Assembly: GCA_025774205.1 (NCBI GenBank)
Contig: JALGWK010000043.1
Location: 1 to 11,629, forward strand
Source: a bacterium
GTDB taxonomy: Bacteria > Blakebacterota > Blakebacteria > Blakebacterales > Blakebacteraceae
Length of the DNA: 11,629 nt
Direction of reading: 5' to 3'
Below the pieces are notes generated by a model. That model searched no databases, was not told the DNA's origin, and saw only the letters and a program-made list of their open reading frames with translations. A program made the translations under genes and the position numbers. Shown here in pieces: positions 1-11,629 of the stretch. Position 1 is the first letter of the stretch. Every line of letters begins with the position of its first letter.

Positions 1-621
1 CAGATCCATGCCTGGCAGGGTGGAATGCTCCAATCCCGCAGCTGCCAGAGCCGCCGTGTTCGCCAGATAGAGTTCCCGATCCCAACTGTTGACGAAAACG
101 GGGTGGTCCGGGGTCACGGGATCGATGGTCCTTCGGTGGGGCCTCCAGCGGTTTTCCTTCAGGCGCTCCCGCTCTCTCCAATCAGCCTCCCAGAGCCGGT
201 GCCCGTCCCAGGAACCACCGGTTATCCACTCACCCTCCGGAAGGATTCCCGCCACCCGGGTCAGCTCCGTTACCAGTCCGTCGTTCTCGGAGACGGCCAT
301 CAGGTCCGCATTATTCCAGATGGATCCCCACCCCGCGAAATGGGTGTGACTATCGATAAAGCCCGGCATGACGAAGGCCCCGTCCATGTCGATCACATGT
401 GTATCGGGTCCCCGCCAGGCTCTGATTTCAGAATCGGACTCAAGGACGGCAGTAATGGTATTTCCGGTGATAACGACCGCGCTGGCCCATGGCTGGTCCG
501 GCTCGAGTGTATAAACGTCTGCGTTCTTGAGGATAAGGTCGGCGGATTGTTGCCTGGTTCCTCCACAGGCAACCAGGAACACCCCCAGGATCAAGCTCGT
601 GATCAGTCTTGTTGTTTTCAT
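1..621 (-). CDS. Amidohydrolase family 3 (YtcJ-like) lipoprotein, N-terminal 207 codons, cut by window edge
   Basis: This gene reads leftward from an ATG at 621 and stays open to position 1, so the C-terminus lies outside the window. Residues 1-19 form a lipoprotein signal: basic MKTTR, a hydrophobic stretch, then the lipobox LVAC with Cys19 as the lipidated residue. This predicts a membrane-anchored protein facing the periplasm or outside. The mature part begins like an amidohydrolase: a beta-strand domain, then PGFIDSHTH with the metal-binding His92 and His94. A GGAG lies about nine bases before the ATG and supports this start. The remaining metal ligands are beyond the edge. It is a paralogue of the gene just upstream (655-2385), sharing blocks such as ITGNTITAVL, GEWITGG and DRELYLANTAAL, and it starts 33 bases after that gene's stop. 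The family hydrolyses C-N bonds (for example N-substituted formamides), but the substrate here cannot be told. Confidence 0.9.
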   Translation of the reverse strand, partial: MKTTRLITSLILGVFLVACGGTRQQSADLILKNADVYTLEPDQPWASAVVITGNTITAVLESDSEIRAWRGPDTHVIDMDGAFVMPGFIDSHTHFAGWGSIWNNADLMAVSENDGLVTELTRVAGILPEGEWITGGSWDGHRLWEADWRERERLKENRWRPHRRTIDPVTPDHPVFVNSWDRELYLANTAALAAAGLEHSTLPGMDL

Positions 622-654: not shown

Positions 655-2385
655 TTAGCGCTCGAAAACGATTCTGCCGTCTACTATGGTCATTTCGATC
701 TCCATATCCAGGAGATCGTCCGGATTGTTCACAATATTCCTGTCGATGACGGTGATATCAGCCAGTTTCCCCGGTCTGATCGTACCGCGTACGGAATCCT
801 CTCCCATACACGCGTAGGCGCCATAGAGGGTGAAGGCTCGTATCGCTTCCTCGATGGTAATCTTGAGATGCGGCTGCCAGCCCCCGGTCGGTTCGCCTTC
901 GTTGTTGGTCCGGTTCACCGCCGCGTTGAGTACGTATTTCGGATGATTGAAGAATATCGCGCCGGCGTTGCCCGGAACGTCCGAGCCGAAGTTCATGACG
1001 ATGCCCTTATCGATAAACGTTCGGAAGGGAAAGGCCAGCTTCTCCCGTTCCGGACCGAGCCTGTTCTCAAGCCAGCGCATGTCGTCGGCTATCTGGCTCG
1101 GATTCGTCTCGGCGATGAGGTTCAACGCCTTCATTCTCTCGAACTCCCGGGGTTGAACGATCTCGGCATGAATGATGCGGAACATGCTCATGTCAGCGTC
1201 AAGGTCCTGCTGAATGCGCTCCAGAACATCGATGACTTCAGAAATGCCACGGTCCCCGATGGCATGGGAATCGACTGAGAATCCGTGCTCAACCGCCGCT
1301 TTGCAGTACTGGTAGAAGACTTCGGGATTGCCGACCAGGCTGCCGGGCTGAGCCGCGTCACTGTTGTACTCCTGGTAGTGGCCTTTGTAGTCCGGCCGGT
1401 CAGTGTACGGCTCGAACAGCATGGCTCCGCGGGAGCCGAGGAAGCCATCATTGGCACTCTTGAAACCGCCGTACCGGAGGAAATAATCACGCTCCAGTGT
1501 CTGAGGGTGCACCCCCATGGTCAGATCCCGCTGGAACATCTCCTCGCTCAGGTCGAGCCAGGGTCTAACCCACACCCGGGCGGTGAGTTCACCACTCTCC
1601 TGCAGCTTCACGAAGCGCTCTACCTGAGTGAAACTCCTGATCATATCATGGATTTCCACGATCCCCATCTCTGCCAGCACCTCCAGGCCGGTGCGGTATT
1701 CGTTCAGGATTCGCTCTTCAGATTTTGGCTTGATTACGCCCCTGATGCGGTCGATTGCGGGAGATCCCCGATAGATCAAGCCGGTCGGTATCCCTCCCTC
1801 GAGCTGCATTCCCTCGAGAGCCGCGTCCGCAAGGCCGGCAGCTTCAAGGGCTGCCGTATTGGCCAGGTAGAGTTCCCTGTCGTAGCTATTGAGAAAACAG
1901 GGGTTGTTCCCGGTGAGATCATCGATGGCAAATCGATCGGGTTCCCAGCGCTGAGGGGGCCTTTCGGTGTTCAGTTCACCCGTCCCGGCCAGCCACTGAA
2001 TGGCTCCGGACCAGTCTCCTCCGGTAATCCATTCCCCATCACCAACCAGAGGTACCACCCGCCTCAGTTCCTCCAGCAGGCCGTCATCGCTATCCACGTT
2101 CATCAGCATGATATCGTGCTGCTGGGCCGCGAATCCGGCGAAGTGCACGTGAGTATCGATGAATCCGGGAAGGGCCAGTCCGCCCTCCAGATCTACGACG
2201 CGGGTATCTGGTCCGATATAGTCCTCAGCTTCGGATTCGTCCGCGAGCACGGCGGTGATCGTATTCCCGGTGATAATGATCGCCCTGGCCCAGGGCTGGT
2301 CTTCATCAACGGTGTACACATCACCGTTCATAAGAACTCTGCGATCCCGAATACCCACCCTATCTTGATGCAGTCCTCTGTTCAA
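655..2385 (-). CDS. YtcJ-like metal-dependent amidohydrolase (Amidohydro_3), no signal peptide
   Basis: This is a full-length amidohydrolase of about 576 residues, the usual size for YtcJ/NfdA-like enzymes. All expected metal-centre residues are visible: His79 and His81 in PGFIDTHVH; Lys309 in GGFKSANDG, the usual carboxylated lysine; His374 in SHAIGDRG; His406 in RIIHAE; and Asp469 in GSDVP. It should be an active hydrolase of an amide or related bond, but the substrate is unknown. The start is uncertain. The frame opens after the preceding methyltransferase stop and contains no ATG before codon 19. TTG at 2385 is the longest choice, GTG at codon 10 and ATG at codon 19 are alternatives, and none has a strong ribosome site. 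In every case the N-terminus lacks a signal peptide, unlike the lipoprotein paralogue that follows, so this copy is probably cytoplasmic. It lies 45 bases after the methyltransferase gene, in the same direction. Confidence 0.9.
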   Translation of the reverse strand: MNRGLHQDRVGIRDRRVLMNGDVYTVDEDQPWARAIIITGNTITAVLADESEAEDYIGPDTRVVDLEGGLALPGFIDTHVHFAGFAAQQHDIMLMNVDSDDGLLEELRRVVPLVGDGEWITGGDWSGAIQWLAGTGELNTERPPQRWEPDRFAIDDLTGNNPCFLNSYDRELYLANTAALEAAGLADAALEGMQLEGGIPTGLIYRGSPAIDRIRGVIKPKSEERILNEYRTGLEVLAEMGIVEIHDMIRSFTQVERFVKLQESGELTARVWVRPWLDLSEEMFQRDLTMGVHPQTLERDYFLRYGGFKSANDGFLGSRGAMLFEPYTDRPDYKGHYQEYNSDAAQPGSLVGNPEVFYQYCKAAVEHGFSVDSHAIGDRGISEVIDVLERIQQDLDADMSMFRIIHAEIVQPREFERMKALNLIAETNPSQIADDMRWLENRLGPEREKLAFPFRTFIDKGIVMNFGSDVPGNAGAIFFNHPKYVLNAAVNRTNNEGEPTGGWQPHLKITIEEAIRAFTLYGAYACMGEDSVRGTIRPGKLADITVIDRNIVNNPDDLLDMEIEMTIVDGRIVFER

Positions 2386-3695: not shown

Positions 3696-4142
3696 TCAGT
3701 CGATCCTCATGTGGATCTCGGTCCCGCCGCGGAGATACCGGACCTCGTCCACCAATTGATTGATCATGTAGACCCCGCGGCCGTGGGTCAGAAAAAGATT
3801 CTTACCGACTACCGGATTCGGGATGGAAGCGGGATCGAAACCGGGACCGGGATCACGGATCACGATCAGCATCCCCTTTTCCTCATCACAGCAGACCGCA
3901 ACCTGGATCTCCTTGTCGGGATCACCGCCGCAGCCGTGCTCGATGGCATTCATCAGCGCTTCTTCAAGAGCCAGCTTGACCTCGAACTCCCTGCCCTCGG
4001 CACACCCCATCCCGGTGACGGCTTCCATGATGTCGGCGACCAGATTGTCCATCGCGTCGACATCGCACACCAGGGTCTCGTCGAGACGCAGGATCAGATC
4101 CTTCGTGTTGAAATCACACCGCGCCGGAGCTTGATCGGTCAT
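3696..4142 (-). CDS. RsbW/SpoIIAB-like HATPase_c_2 domain protein (anti-sigma-type serine kinase)
   Basis: This is a 148-residue protein that is almost entirely a GHKL ATP-binding domain of the anti-sigma-factor kinase type. The N box is EEALMNAIEHG (residues 60-70, with Asn65 as the usual Mg ligand), the G1 box is RDPGPGFDP (residues 96-104), and the G2 region is GRGVYMINQL (residues 121-130). Proteins of this family bind ATP and either phosphorylate a STAS-domain antagonist or sequester a sigma factor. No STAS, PP2C or sigma-factor gene is visible in this window, so its partner is unknown. The start is well supported: AGGAG sits five bases before the ATG and overlaps the stop codon of the preceding kinase gene (TAG, then GAG), with an eight-base gap. 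This points to translational coupling and a functional link with that kinase. Confidence 0.93.
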   Translation of the reverse strand: MTDQAPARCDFNTKDLILRLDETLVCDVDAMDNLVADIMEAVTGMGCAEGREFEVKLALEEALMNAIEHGCGGDPDKEIQVAVCCDEEKGMLIVIRDPGPGFDPASIPNPVVGKNLFLTHGRGVYMINQLVDEVRYLRGGTEIHMRID

Positions 4143-6944: not shown

Positions 6945-7907
6945 ATGATCGAAGAGATCCGTATCGAAAACCTGGATCCGGCGGCATTCATCGAGGATCA
7001 GGTGAGTCACATTGCCGGCAAGGTCGGCGATGGTCTGGCGATCAATGCCCTTTCGGGCGGGGTCGACTCATCGGCGGTCACCATGCTGGGACACAGGGCG
7101 ATCGGCGATAACTGCCGGACCTATTTCGTAGAGAACGGCCTGATGCGGAAGGGTGAGCCGGAGCAGGTCGTCTCCCTCTTCGCCGAACTGGGAGTGCATG
7201 TCGAGGTCATCGACGCCAAGGAAGAGTTCTTCGAAGCGCTGAGGGGCGTGGTCGATCCCGAGGAGAAACGGGAGGCCATAACCCAGACCTTCTATAAGGA
7301 AGTATTCGGCCGGCTGGTGAAGGAGAGCGGCGCGAAGCATCTCCTCCAGGGCACGATCCTGACCGACGTGGATGAGACCGTGGCCGGGATCAAGCGGCAG
7401 CACAATGTCTTTGAACAACTGGGGATCGATCCGCAGGAGACCTTCGGCTACCAGATCATCGAACCCCTGCTGCAGATCCGCAAAGACGGCGTCCGGAAGG
7501 TCGCCGAAGCTCTCGATCTGCCTGAATCAACCTGGAACCGGATGCCCTTCCCCGGTCCGGCCCTCTCGGCCCGCGTGATCGGTGAGGTCACCCCGGAACG
7601 GATTGACCTGGTGCGGCACGCGACCTCCATCACTGAAGAGGAACTCGAAGACATCGACGCCTTCCTGAAGCTGGCCATCATTCATGAGGACCGGGTGACT
7701 GGGATGCGCGACGGTAAGCGGGAGTTCGGCTTCCAGATCGAAGTCAGATGCTGGGACAGCATCGACGCGCGGATCGGCACTCCGACGAATATCCCGTTCG
7801 AGACGCTGACAGGTCTCTCCGATCGACTTGTCAACGAGGTACCCGGCGTGGTGAGCGTGACGTATAACATCGCCTCCAAGCCGCCCTCCACCATGGAACC
7901 GGTGTAG
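6945..7907 (+). CDS. GMP synthase-like PP-loop ATPase, stand-alone synthetase subunit (GuaAb type), divergent
   Basis: This is a 320-residue protein equal to the C-terminal part of GMP synthase. The PP-loop SGGVDSS (37-43) binds ATP, and QGT (135-137), PFPGP (201-205), VNEVPGVV (296-303) and the C-terminal SKPP (311-314) match the ATP-pyrophosphatase and XMP-binding/dimerization parts. GMP synthase aminates XMP to GMP. Here the glutamine amidotransferase domain is missing, as in two-subunit archaeal-type enzymes, and no partner glutaminase is in the window. Several usual residues differ: FVENG for FVDHG, RQHNVFEQ for SHHNVGGLPE, PGPAL for PGPGL, no WAR-type motif near 280, and a C-terminus TMEPV in place of TIEWE. 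It may be a true GMP synthase subunit or a paralogue acting on another acid substrate. The ATG at 6945 is preceded by GGAG at eight bases. A longer frame from 6867 adds residues with no family match. Confidence 0.88.
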   Translation: MIEEIRIENLDPAAFIEDQVSHIAGKVGDGLAINALSGGVDSSAVTMLGHRAIGDNCRTYFVENGLMRKGEPEQVVSLFAELGVHVEVIDAKEEFFEALRGVVDPEEKREAITQTFYKEVFGRLVKESGAKHLLQGTILTDVDETVAGIKRQHNVFEQLGIDPQETFGYQIIEPLLQIRKDGVRKVAEALDLPESTWNRMPFPGPALSARVIGEVTPERIDLVRHATSITEEELEDIDAFLKLAIIHEDRVTGMRDGKREFGFQIEVRCWDSIDARIGTPTNIPFETLTGLSDRLVNEVPGVVSVTYNIASKPPSTMEPV

Positions 7908-7942
7908 GGAGTGGTCCCGGGAGGATCGACGCGGGTACGACC

Positions 7943-9379
7943 ATGACTGATATCCCTGCCGACAGGGTCGACCGATTCATCCCCCGGTCAATCAACCCGA
8001 TTAAAGTCGGGCGGGTCGTGATCTTCAGCGCGGAGAAACGGATCCGGGAGACCACCACGATCCTCGCGGAGAACATACCCTGGACCAGTGTTGATCTCGT
8101 AAGCGATCCTCAATCGGTCAATGACTACCGTGCTGAGATGCCGATCGTCTTTATTCTCGATGATACCGCCCTGCCCCTGGTCGACATTGAAACCGTACGA
8201 TCCAACAATCCCGACAGTGTGATCGTCCTGGTCACTGCCAACACCTTTCTCCAGAGTTCCGCCCCCCAGCCAGCTCGTGAGAGGTACCCCTACTCGGCGC
8301 AGGCTGACCTCGTGTTCGCATACGATTCCGATACCTGCGCCCCGGCCCTGATCATCCCGGCGGCGGTCAGAGCGGCCGAAGATCTGATCAATATCCGGCA
8401 ATCGGGACGTATACGGCGGTTCGTCTTCCTTGTCGTCGATGACGAACCCCGGTGGGTATCACAGTTTCTCCCGGTCCTTTACAGCATCATCGGTCAGCGG
8501 GCAGCAGTGATGATCGCCAGAACATATGAGGAAAGCCTGAAATTCCTGTTCGGGACAGGTGATGAGGACCTGATCGAAGATCCCGGATCAGAGACCACCG
8601 GTCAGGGTAAGGACACGGTAATTCTGATCACCGACCTCATCTTTCCCCGGGGTGATGAACTCGACAGCGACACCGGACCGGATCTGATCCGACTCGTCAC
8701 CCGCCATTTTCCGCGGATCCCGATTGTTATCGCTTCGAAGGCTGATGAGGCGGAGGCCTTCAGAAGTGATTGTCATATCCTGCCGAAGGGGGATCCGGGA
8801 AGCCTGGTGGAGTTGAGGGAGTATATCCTCGATCACGCCGGTATCGGTGATTTCCTGGTATTGGACGAGCATGGTGGTGTTCTCTTCCGGATCACGAATA
8901 TTCACGAGATGTATAATGTGCTCTGTTTCGCCGAGTGGGAGGGGCCTGAGGGCAAGAAATTCCGTGACATCTTCGAGGCGTACGGTCAACGGGACGCTTT
9001 CTCCACCTGGCTCTATATGCACAGTTACCGGGAGCTGGGAGACATCATCCGGCCTGACCGGAGTCAGGGATTGCAGTTGATCTCCTTCCTGAAGGAACAT
9101 ATCGAAAAAGAGATTCAGAAACTCGACACCACCCCGCTGATCATCGGCACGGAGCACGTGTTCACCCTTCACGATCTCCTGGCAACCCTGAAGTCGGTAT
9201 CTCAGGAAGTCATCCAGAATCTGGCGGATAACGATGTCATTTCATCCTGGCTCGACTGGCAGGGGTATTCGCTGCTCGCTGAAGAGGTACGGCCGATCCA
9301 TGGGAGTGGAGAAAACCAGCGGGAGACTATCATGAATGCGATCGAGCGCCGGATACATGATTACAGGATCGAGGGCTGA
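7943..9379 (+). CDS. Tandem receiver protein: pseudo-receiver, canonical receiver, and duplicated C-terminal WL...RP module
   Basis: This is a 478-residue soluble protein. Residues about 22-150 look like a degenerate receiver. Residues about 158-300 form a second receiver with all key positions: the acidic pair Asp166/Asp167 in VVDDE, phospho-acceptor Asp231 in LITDL, Ser265 in IASK, and Lys282 in LPKGD. Then come GIGDFLVLD (300-308) and AFSTWLYMHSYRELGDIIRP (352-371), with a similar segment DVISSWLDWQGYSLLAEEVRP at 431-451, so the C-terminal module appears duplicated. There is no DNA-binding or enzymatic output domain. From memory, the same order (pseudo-receiver, receiver, GFGDF, FSxWL) precedes the PEP/pyruvate-binding domain in large Bacteroidetes proteins; here that enzyme part is absent. 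The gene follows the GMP-synthase-like gene by 35 bases. GGGAGG at 7919-7924 is 18 bases before the ATG, unusually far, so the start is only fairly sure. The partner kinase is unknown. Confidence 0.85.
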   Translation: MTDIPADRVDRFIPRSINPIKVGRVVIFSAEKRIRETTTILAENIPWTSVDLVSDPQSVNDYRAEMPIVFILDDTALPLVDIETVRSNNPDSVIVLVTANTFLQSSAPQPARERYPYSAQADLVFAYDSDTCAPALIIPAAVRAAEDLINIRQSGRIRRFVFLVVDDEPRWVSQFLPVLYSIIGQRAAVMIARTYEESLKFLFGTGDEDLIEDPGSETTGQGKDTVILITDLIFPRGDELDSDTGPDLIRLVTRHFPRIPIVIASKADEAEAFRSDCHILPKGDPGSLVELREYILDHAGIGDFLVLDEHGGVLFRITNIHEMYNVLCFAEWEGPEGKKFRDIFEAYGQRDAFSTWLYMHSYRELGDIIRPDRSQGLQLISFLKEHIEKEIQKLDTTPLIIGTEHVFTLHDLLATLKSVSQEVIQNLADNDVISSWLDWQGYSLLAEEVRPIHGSGENQRETIMNAIERRIHDYRIEG

Positions 9380-9415: not shown

Positions 9416-10054
9416 ATGAGCAGGGATCACTACCAGTGGATGGCGCGACTCTACGATCCGGTGATCGGTCGGTTCAACCGGGTCCTGAGAGAGATAGCGA
9501 TGTCGATGCTCCCGCCCTGTGAAGGAGCGAACGTTCTCGATGTCGGATGCGGGACCGGGCTGCACCTGGAACTCTACGCCCGATCCGGATGCCGGATCTC
9601 AGGCGTAGATCTTTCGCCGGCGATGCTTGCGATCGCCCGGAAACGGCTCGGTGATGAGGCCGATCTCAGAGAGGTTGACGCCCGGGAGATGCCGTTCGAC
9701 GACAATGCATTTGAGGTAGTTCTCGCCTCCCTCTTCCTCCACGAACACCCGCCGGAAATACGGATGACGATCCTGGAGCAGATGCGTCGCGTCCTGAAGC
9801 CGGATGGCCGATTGCTGATCCTCGATTTCCATCCCGGCCCATTCACGGGGATCAGGGGGCACTGGACGAACGCGGTCATCACCGTCGCGGAACGGTTCGC
9901 CGGACGGGAGCACTTCCTCAATTCCCGCTTCTTCCTCGCCAACCAGGGAATGCTCCCGCTCGTCGAAGATTTCGGGATGACGATCGAGGAGATGAAGGTC
10001 GTCGCGGGCGGCACCATGGGACTCTATCTGCTGCGAAAAGGAGTAACTCGATGA
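9416..10054 (+). CDS. Class I SAM-dependent methyltransferase (UbiE/Methyltransf_11-like)
   Basis: This is a 212-residue protein with the complete SAM-binding core. Motif I is VLDVGCGTG (40-48), Asp65 in GVDLSP should bind the SAM ribose, DAREMPF (88-94) marks motif II, FEVVLASLFLHE (99-110) follows, and RRVLKPDGRLLILDF (124-138) is the classic post-core strand. The N-terminal WMARLYDPVIGRF resembles UbiE and phospholipid or quinone methyltransferases, which suggests a small or lipid-like substrate, but this cannot be fixed. It is unrelated in detail to the methyltransferase of the other block. No strong ribosome site precedes the ATG, and the gap after the receiver gene is 36 bases. Its TGA overlaps the ATG of the following secreted protein (ATGA at 10051-10054), so the two are likely translated together. 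Confidence 0.9.
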   Translation: MSRDHYQWMARLYDPVIGRFNRVLREIAMSMLPPCEGANVLDVGCGTGLHLELYARSGCRISGVDLSPAMLAIARKRLGDEADLREVDAREMPFDDNAFEVVLASLFLHEHPPEIRMTILEQMRRVLKPDGRLLILDFHPGPFTGIRGHWTNAVITVAERFAGREHFLNSRFFLANQGMLPLVEDFGMTIEEMKVVAGGTMGLYLLRKGVTR

Positions 10055-11535
10055 GGCGTTCGGGAGTATTGAGCCTGTTGTGCGTAATCTGCCTGTCGAT
10101 TCTGAACAGCGCCCCGACAGTCCTGGCCCAGTCGGCTCGGAGCCCCCTGCTCGATTCGTTCGAAGAGTACCTGGCGATCCGGGACGCGTCTGAATTCAGA
10201 CTCGAGTGGGTGCCGCTCGGACCGGTCATGAATTCCGCCCGGGTCGAGGCGGTGCAGGGAGATCCCCGGTCACCCGCTACCATGTATGCGGCGTTCGGAT
10301 CGGGCAACCTCTGGAAGACCACCGACCACGGACTCACCTGGCGACCGATCTTCGAGGATCAGTCAGCCCTCGGCATCGGTGACATCGCCCTGGCGCCGTC
10401 GAATCCGGATGTCATCTGGCTCGGATCGGGGGAGAGTCTCAAGAAAGCGCGCAACTTCACCATGCCGGGCACCGGGGTGTTCCGCTCCGATGACGCCGGC
10501 GAGACCTGGCGGAACGTGGGCCTGCCCGACTCATACCACATCGGCGAGATCGCGGTGCACCCGGGCGATCCCGACATCGCCTTCGTGGCGGTGCAGGGTC
10601 ACTTCTGGTCTACAAATCCGAACCGGGGGCTCTACCGGACCGTCGACGGCGGCGAGTCGTGGGAGCATGTGCTCTACGTGAACGAGCGAACCGGGGCAAA
10701 TGACGTCGTCATCGCCCCCTCCGATCCCGACCGGGTGTATGTCTCGATGTGGGAGAACAATCCGGGGGTGGCGGGACCGGAGAGCGGCGTCTGGTACAGC
10801 GCCGACGGCGGCGCGACCTTCACCCGGGCCCGGGACGGTTTTCCTGATGGCGACATGACAGGACGGATCGGCGTGGCAGTTTCCTGGACCGATCCCCTGA
10901 AAGCCTATGCCTTCGTCGACAACCTGAACCGGACCGGACGGCAGGAGGGGAAGGGCGAGGTCTACCGTACCCTCGACGGCGGGGTGACCTGGAACCGTAC
11001 CCACGAGGAGGAACTGCTGAACCTGGCCGGTCTTGGCTGGTACTTCGTCGATTGCCATGTGAATCCGCGGGATGACGACGAGATCTGGGCCCTCGGGGTA
11101 CAGACTGCCCACAGCGCCGACGGGGGTAAGACCTTCAGCCTGATGGGCGGCGAGGTCTACCACCTCTTCCCCAATCCGGCGGAGATGCTCCAATCCCGAC
11201 CGTCTCCTCCTGGGCAACGACGGCGGCTTCTTCGTCAGCTACGACCGGGCGGAAACGTGGATGCACTACAACAACATCCCGGCCGGGGAGTTCTACGACA
11301 TCGCGGTCGACAACCAGTATCCCTACCGGGTCTACGGCGGAACCCAGGACGACTCTTCCGTCATGGGCCCCTCCCGGGAGTGGCAGGCGAAGTACCCCGA
11401 CGACTGGCAGTACGTCTGGCTCGACTCATGGTCGGGCGGCGACGGCTGTTATACCCTGCCCGATCCGATCGATCCGAATATCGTCTACTTCTCGAGCCAG
11501 AACGGCGGAATCCGCCGCAAGGACATGGCGGCTGA
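10051..11535 (+). CDS. Secreted BNR/sortilin-like beta-propeller protein, N-terminal part; frame lost near 11191
   Basis: The first 26 residues form a Sec signal (MRRSG, a hydrophobic core, then TVLA before Gln27). The mature protein carries Asp-box (BNR) repeats, each a hairpin of the form S/T-x-D-x-G-x-T-W: KTTDHGLTW (89-97), RSDDAGETW (145-153), RTVDGGESW (196-204), YSADGGATF (249-257), RTLDGGVTW (306-314) and HSADGGKTF (354-362). Such propellers occur in sialidases, sortilin/VPS10-like proteins and many secreted proteins of unknown role; no sialidase catalytic set is recognised here. After about residue 380 (AEML) the frame turns into low-complexity, Pro/Arg-rich sequence with no family match and ends at TGA 11533-11535. 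The real family sequence continues in another frame (11192 onward), so this 494-residue product is probably a truncated or artefactual form. Start ATG overlaps the methyltransferase stop by four bases. Confidence 0.85.
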   Translation: MRRSGVLSLLCVICLSILNSAPTVLAQSARSPLLDSFEEYLAIRDASEFRLEWVPLGPVMNSARVEAVQGDPRSPATMYAAFGSGNLWKTTDHGLTWRPIFEDQSALGIGDIALAPSNPDVIWLGSGESLKKARNFTMPGTGVFRSDDAGETWRNVGLPDSYHIGEIAVHPGDPDIAFVAVQGHFWSTNPNRGLYRTVDGGESWEHVLYVNERTGANDVVIAPSDPDRVYVSMWENNPGVAGPESGVWYSADGGATFTRARDGFPDGDMTGRIGVAVSWTDPLKAYAFVDNLNRTGRQEGKGEVYRTLDGGVTWNRTHEEELLNLAGLGWYFVDCHVNPRDDDEIWALGVQTAHSADGGKTFSLMGGEVYHLFPNPAEMLQSRPSPPGQRRRLLRQLRPGGNVDALQQHPGRGVLRHRGRQPVSLPGLRRNPGRLFRHGPLPGVAGEVPRRLAVRLARLMVGRRRLLYPARSDRSEYRLLLEPERRNPPQGHGG

Positions 11536-11629
11536 CCGGTCAGTGGGGATCAGGCCGCGTTTCCCGAGGGATGATGGTCGTGAACTGACCTACAACTTCA
11601 TCGCGCCCTACATTATCTCACCCCACAAC
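11192..11629 (+). pseudogene. Continuation of the BNR/sortilin-like propeller in the +1 frame, after a frameshift; runs off the window
   Basis: From the AAT at 11192 the frame is open to the last base (146 codons). It reads as the normal next part of the propeller: NPDRLLLGNDGG, then the Asp-box-like FVSYDRAETW, NNIPAGEFYDIAVDN, YRVYGGTQDD, and later GGDGCYTLPDPIDPN and RRKDMAADRS. These are the typical central motifs of long BNR/sortilin-like secreted proteins, and there is no start codon or ribosome site that would make this a separate gene. By comparison with recalled relatives, around ten residues before NPDR (a region usually rich in His and Trp, of the HHELWI type) seem to be missing. 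That fits a deletion of 3n+2 bases rather than a single-base slip. It is either a real pseudogene or an assembly or sequencing error. Confidence 0.8.

Follow-up and report, generated by a model that had tools for sequence, protein, structure and literature searches.

The stretch of DNA analyzed (the window; 11,629 nt, contig C128 of a metagenome-assembled genome, hereafter the bin) contains a gene for a stand-alone tandem-receiver protein, which we call the head. It lies between a gene resembling guaA and a methyltransferase gene. The following features, all on the + strand, were assigned:

6945..7907, +, GMP-synthase-like ATP pyrophosphatase without GATase domain (guaA-like gene; Pfam/NCBIfam), whose counterpart is the upstream neighbor of the enzyme gene in genome G001
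7908..7942, +, leader of 35 nt, probable scar of a lost enzyme ORF, homologous to the guaA-like/enzyme spacer of G001, which also has 35 nt
7943..9379, +, stand-alone head of 478 aa with ATG start, composed of tandem receivers and two FSxWL (DUF5752-like) modules
8006..8398, +, degenerate first receiver, residues ~22-152 (strand/helix alternation in the structure model; the homologous part of fused proteins matches Response_reg)
8414..8842, +, canonical second receiver, residues 158-300 (characteristic residues invariant in 8/8 heads; weak RcsB match; tandem-receiver folds in the PDB)
8849..9130, +, FSxWL module 1, residues 303-396, DUF5752-like, following a GIGDF linker (the homologous module of fused proteins matches PF19027)
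9131..9376, +, FSxWL module 2, residues 397-478, a tandem copy (hhalign of both modules; BLASTP cross-matches)
9416..10054, +, SAM methyltransferase, which also follows the head in G001 (listed for context)

The ORF at 7943-9379 is far beyond chance: its relatives show 46-76% identity, and dN/dS values of 0.15-0.22 indicate purifying selection. An earlier note made from the letters alone had described the frame, the GIGDF linker and an FSxWL module correctly, and the acidic pair D166/D167, the phospho-acceptor D231, S265 and K282 of the second receiver lie where it had placed them; they are invariant in the eight stand-alone heads compared. Its FSxWL module is present, but a second copy in tandem had gone unnoticed. 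The two modules align with each other (hhalign probability 97.7, E 2e-12), as against one module in the fused proteins described below. In the first receiver, the acidic pair after strand 1 and the Lys after strand 5 are absent, while D73/D74 lie at the end of strand 3. The two receivers disclosed no statistical similarity to each other (hhalign E 0.11).

A Pfam search with the head revealed no family at E<=1, and the NCBIfam search only gave a weak match to RcsB (E 0.15). The FSxWL modules are homologous to DUF5752 (PF19027) via their fused relatives, the window protein itself lying below the Pfam cut-off. A DNA-binding output domain was found in neither Pfam nor NCBIfam, the C-terminus being DUF5752-like. 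No PPDK_N match was obtained on the chain, which stops after module 2, in agreement with the claim of the earlier note that the enzyme part is absent from this gene. A structure model calculated from three sequences (pLDDT 63) was used for secondary structure and receiver folds only and exhibited two domains of alternating strands and helices plus two helical modules; across residues 21-100, where strands and helices alternate, pLDDT was ~75-88. Among the PDB structures matched by the model are PleD and the tandem-receiver proteins 3luf and 3mf4. Within the window, no histidine kinase of a suitable type was detected; the HATPase_c_2 protein encoded at 3696-4142 resembles an anti-sigma factor.

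The earlier note had likened this domain order to the N-terminal third of large PEP/pyruvate-binding proteins of Bacteroidetes. This family match was corroborated, as nearly all relatives found, apart from close ones, are N-terminal heads of receiver-PPDK_N proteins of ~1000 aa. Beyond three genomes of the window's family, matches in the 60 genomes searched resided only inside open frames of 984-1096 aa with the domain order Response_reg, DUF5752-like and PPDK_N. In these fused proteins PPDK_N was recognized with E-values of 1e-31 to 1e-39 (110-135 bits), while their FSxWL module exceeded the PF19027 cut-off of 23 bits once (24.4 bits). The window protein aligns with the first third of the fused proteins and the separate enzymes of its relatives align collinearly with the remainder. 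BLASTP of the window head against fused heads gave E-values of 1e-9 to 1e-17, and profile matches reached 1e-25 in many genomes. Two profile surveys gave matches in 43 of 386 genomes and in 88 of 297. Outside the clade of stand-alone heads nearly all of them were single frames of ~980-1130 aa; the few shorter frames inspected were due to contig ends or masked stretches or, in G121, encoded a truly separate head.

Eight stand-alone heads were identified, two in the window's own bin and one each in G001 (same genus), G002 (same family), the Aminicenantes MAG G060, and G479, G548 and G450 of the same phylum as G060. They form one clade (SH-aLRT 100), into which the window head falls with 73-76% identity to the paired heads. 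In seven of the eight cases the gene immediately preceding the head, on the same strand, encodes a separate PPDK_N-like enzyme; the window copy is the exception. The two genes usually overlap or are spaced by few bases (overlap of 8 nt in G001 and on contig C442 of the window's bin, 4 nt, ATGA, in G060). Since the enzyme gene comes first, the gene order reverses the domain order of the fused protein. Thus, the head is indeed separate from its enzyme, as the earlier note had proposed with its freed regulatory module, but it is not unique in this and belongs to a clade with enzyme and head as separate genes.

The separate enzymes share the motifs GGK, RSSA, EF...Q and GR.G with the fused ones and end in QG[ST]HF, as does the enzyme of G121. 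Their PPDK_N scores (15.6 and 14.6 bits) lie below the curated cut-off of 27, and beyond PPDK_N they gave no Pfam match to a phosphohistidine swivel or PEP-binding domain. A PF01326 profile search of the own genome and G060 yielded nothing because the separate enzymes score below the profile; a protein query did find them. Their structure model, derived from a two-sequence alignment, was unusable (pLDDT 35). In G121 the two genes occupy different places on opposite strands, while in G258, of the same family, head and enzyme are fused; judging from these arrangements, the separation in G121 is a second, independent one. G450 (L126, L127) has both arrangements: a fused receiver-PPDK_N protein, the end of which lies convergent to a split enzyme-head pair, and on a second contig another such fused protein.

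The gene upstream of the window head was confirmed to encode a GMP-synthase-like ATPase (GMP_synt_C, E 2e-15; TIGR00884, 283 bits, below the cut-off of 339), as the earlier note had stated. It is conserved at 49-87% in G001, G002, G004 and G060, some of which also carry a full-length GuaA-like frame (513-520 aa). Its linkage to the head was only found within the genus, the two genes residing on separate contigs in G002 and G060; owing to this limited linkage, the guaA-like gene was rejected as the true partner of the head. In G001 the order is guaA-like gene, enzyme, head, methyltransferase and BNR protein, with the enzyme gene spanning a break between contigs C229 and C181 (270-nt overlap at 96% identity). 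The window contains the same set minus the enzyme, whose ORF is missing exactly from its own start codon to that of the head. Homology to C229 covers the guaA-like gene and the 35-nt spacer up to the start codon, and homology to C181 starts at the head start codon, so that in the window the leader is joined directly to the ATG of the head. The window head starts with ATGACTGA, and the out-of-frame TGA therein is the enzyme stop codon in G001. The enzyme begins with ATGAAG in G001 and the head with ATGACT; the shared ATGA is a microhomology that may offer an ordinary route for deletion of the enzyme ORF.

The earlier note had suggested looking in the same genome for a PEP/pyruvate-binding protein without a receiver head, and such an enzyme is encoded on contig C442. 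It lacks a head on its own chain, but adjoins a separate one, a paralog of the window head with 76% identity. Altogether the bin possesses one enzyme gene (C442) and one guaA-like ortholog (C128). C442 opens with 28 nt that correspond to the guaA-like leader of G001 and continue straight into the guaA-like/enzyme spacer; the guaA-like ORF is lacking precisely from its start codon to its stop codon (L046, 1-66). Comparison of these gene orders suggests that a guaA-like/enzyme/head segment was probably duplicated, whereupon the C128 copy lost the enzyme ORF and the C442 copy the guaA-like ORF; duplication followed by reciprocal loss would be the simplest cause of one enzyme, one guaA-like gene and two clean gaps. 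The dS value between the two heads of the bin (0.71) is below those to G001 (0.98 for the C442 head, 1.11 for the window head), as expected if the duplication postdates the divergence from G001. Protein identities do not pair the two heads, and the tree leaves the branching within their trio with G001 open.

Some further observations concern the surroundings of these genes. The bin thus contains two ORF-precise deletions, and the one on C442 shows only ~2 nt of microhomology. Downstream of enzyme and head, C442 carries a convergent S9 peptidase gene, whose G001 counterpart has an unrelated location. The C442 head ends at a terminator-like hairpin (L046 3137-3179) that in G001 is situated downstream of the S9 peptidase; hence the enzyme-head cassette adjoins the terminator of this gene. 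At the position of the cassette, G001 has a reverse-transcriptase-like ORF of the group II intron type downstream of its S9 peptidase (L092 4808-5662, contig C159).

The window head retains 113 of the 114 columns that are invariant in the seven other heads, L459Q being its sole private change, and therefore does not appear to be decaying. It departs from invariant columns less often than any other member, a count that is in part due to two near relatives in the set, although these two themselves depart more often. Its dN/dS to G001 is 0.152 compared to 0.153 for the paired C442 head. Judged by its residues, the window head is constrained as if it were still bound by the same partner and by phosphorylation.

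These data fit a model in which the window head is the regulatory subunit of a receiver/PPDK_N system that has been split. Most bacteria with such a system have a single polypeptide, of which two receivers and a DUF5752-like module make up the N-terminal third and a putative PPDK_N-type ATP-binding enzyme, lacking a recognized phosphohistidine swivel domain, the remainder; two adjacent genes supply enzyme and head in genomes of the window's family and in a few of the G060 phylum. To judge from its residues, the second receiver may be phosphorylated at D231 by a histidine kinase. The receiver/DUF5752 part would then dock on the enzyme, presumably as it does in cis in the fused proteins, and might thereby alter its activity. 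The orphan head of the window would act on the enzyme encoded on C442, in parallel to or in competition with that enzyme's own head, and would thus be a second, separately expressed input to the enzyme or a competitor for it. That the window head is an orphan subunit acting in trans, derived from a system that was split, duplicated and reciprocally lost, appears fairly probable to us. More tentatively, we propose that duplication and reciprocal ORF-precise loss left one genome with a lone split enzyme and two receiver subunits that are expressed separately and compete with each other.

Other explanations were also considered. That the gene encodes a common stand-alone response regulator with no relation to PEP/pyruvate-binding proteins is scarcely credible. 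Admittedly, RcsB is the weak best match in curated libraries and the PDB, but collinear fused-head matches with E-values of 1e-9 to 1e-25 occur in many genomes and the enzyme adjoins the head in seven relatives. The outcome that the earlier note had regarded as contradictory to its proposal, ordinary response regulators as best matches, did not come about, and this candidate was discarded on the basis of family matches and gene neighborhood. A loss of the enzyme ORF during assembly of C128 seems very improbable as well. The MAG is fragmented, the join coincides exactly with the ORF boundaries and C442 has another gap of the same precision; however, the enzyme is not repeated in the bin (one match), a dropout of 1.65 kb at start codons is without obvious assembler mechanism, and the ATGA microhomology supplies an ordinary deletion route.

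We regard it as distinctly unlikely that the orphan head is a leftover of the duplication without a separate role and on its way to loss. It is redundant with the C442 head and has no adjacent partner, but its one private change, the fewest of any member, its dN/dS equal to that of the paired copy and its start codon exactly behind the old leader do not resemble decay. Rather unlikely, finally, is that two congeneric species were binned together and that the window species lost the enzyme, its head serving another output (e.g., the guaA-like ATPase) or none. Completeness of the bin is 85.85% and contamination 4.84%, and C442 could therefore belong to a congener. The head is the only gene common to C442 and C128, and divergence from G001 differs slightly between them (dS of 0.74 for the S9 peptidase and 0.73 for the enzyme on C442 versus 0.84-1.11 for C128 genes), although the C442 head has a value of 0.98. 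The guaA-like gene, moreover, is the present operon neighbor of the head. On the other hand, the bin contains no congener-like duplicate of any other window or C442 gene, the C442 peptidase being single too, which argues against a contaminating congener without settling the matter. A single guaA-like gene and a single enzyme gene on different contigs are what duplication with reciprocal loss predicts, and an output via the guaA-like protein is at variance with the lack of conserved linkage in G002 and G060.

Fused receiver-PPDK_N proteins are widespread and already known. They have two N-terminal receivers, a linker, an FSxWL (DUF5752-like) module and a PPDK_N-type enzyme, like the window system, but on one polypeptide with the head first and one module, whereas in the window the head stands by itself, carries two modules and has no enzyme gene next to it. 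Asp-less receivers and pseudo-receivers have been reported in association with pyruvate phosphate dikinases (PMC4395418) and resemble the window family in that a degenerate receiver precedes a PPDK-type enzyme. Unlike those, receiver 1 of the window head keeps the Asp ending strand 3, though neither the acidic pair nor the Lys, and a full canonical receiver follows. In the two-component dikinases HpeHI, CreHI and PpsAB, a PPDK/RPH-type enzyme is encoded by two genes and its two parts work in trans (PMC12167813). Enzymes of this superfamily can therefore work divided, though cut elsewhere: there the ATP-grasp part is apart from the swivel and substrate domains (PMC12167813), while in the window system regulatory receivers are apart from an ATP-binding enzyme. 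In the literature searched, which covered few subscription papers, we found no description of the split form, the doubled FSxWL module or an orphan head, and no paper naming DUF5752; nor did the search yield work on how the receivers act on the enzyme in the fused proteins.

With its regulator outside the operon of the enzyme, the window may be a snapshot of a cis-acting domain possibly turning into a trans-acting one. If one genome does have two competing receiver subunits for a single split enzyme, this would illustrate how a regulatory domain built into an ATP-grasp-type enzyme can evolve into a diffusible two-component regulator that is no longer linked to it. The naturally separated halves can be produced and combined independently, and control of an ATP-binding enzyme by receiver phosphorylation is thus directly testable.

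Two minor observations were made at the ends of the window. The BNR-repeat (sortilin-like) protein at 10051-11629 is distributed over two frames with a break near 11187-11261, which is either a frameshift or an assembly indel; its G001 counterpart is an intact frame of 886 aa (L003 3443-6100). Contig C394 of the bin ends in exactly the sequence of window positions 1-114, and the two contigs probably join. C394 carries a further amidohydrolase-like stretch with 66% identity to window positions 657-1124.
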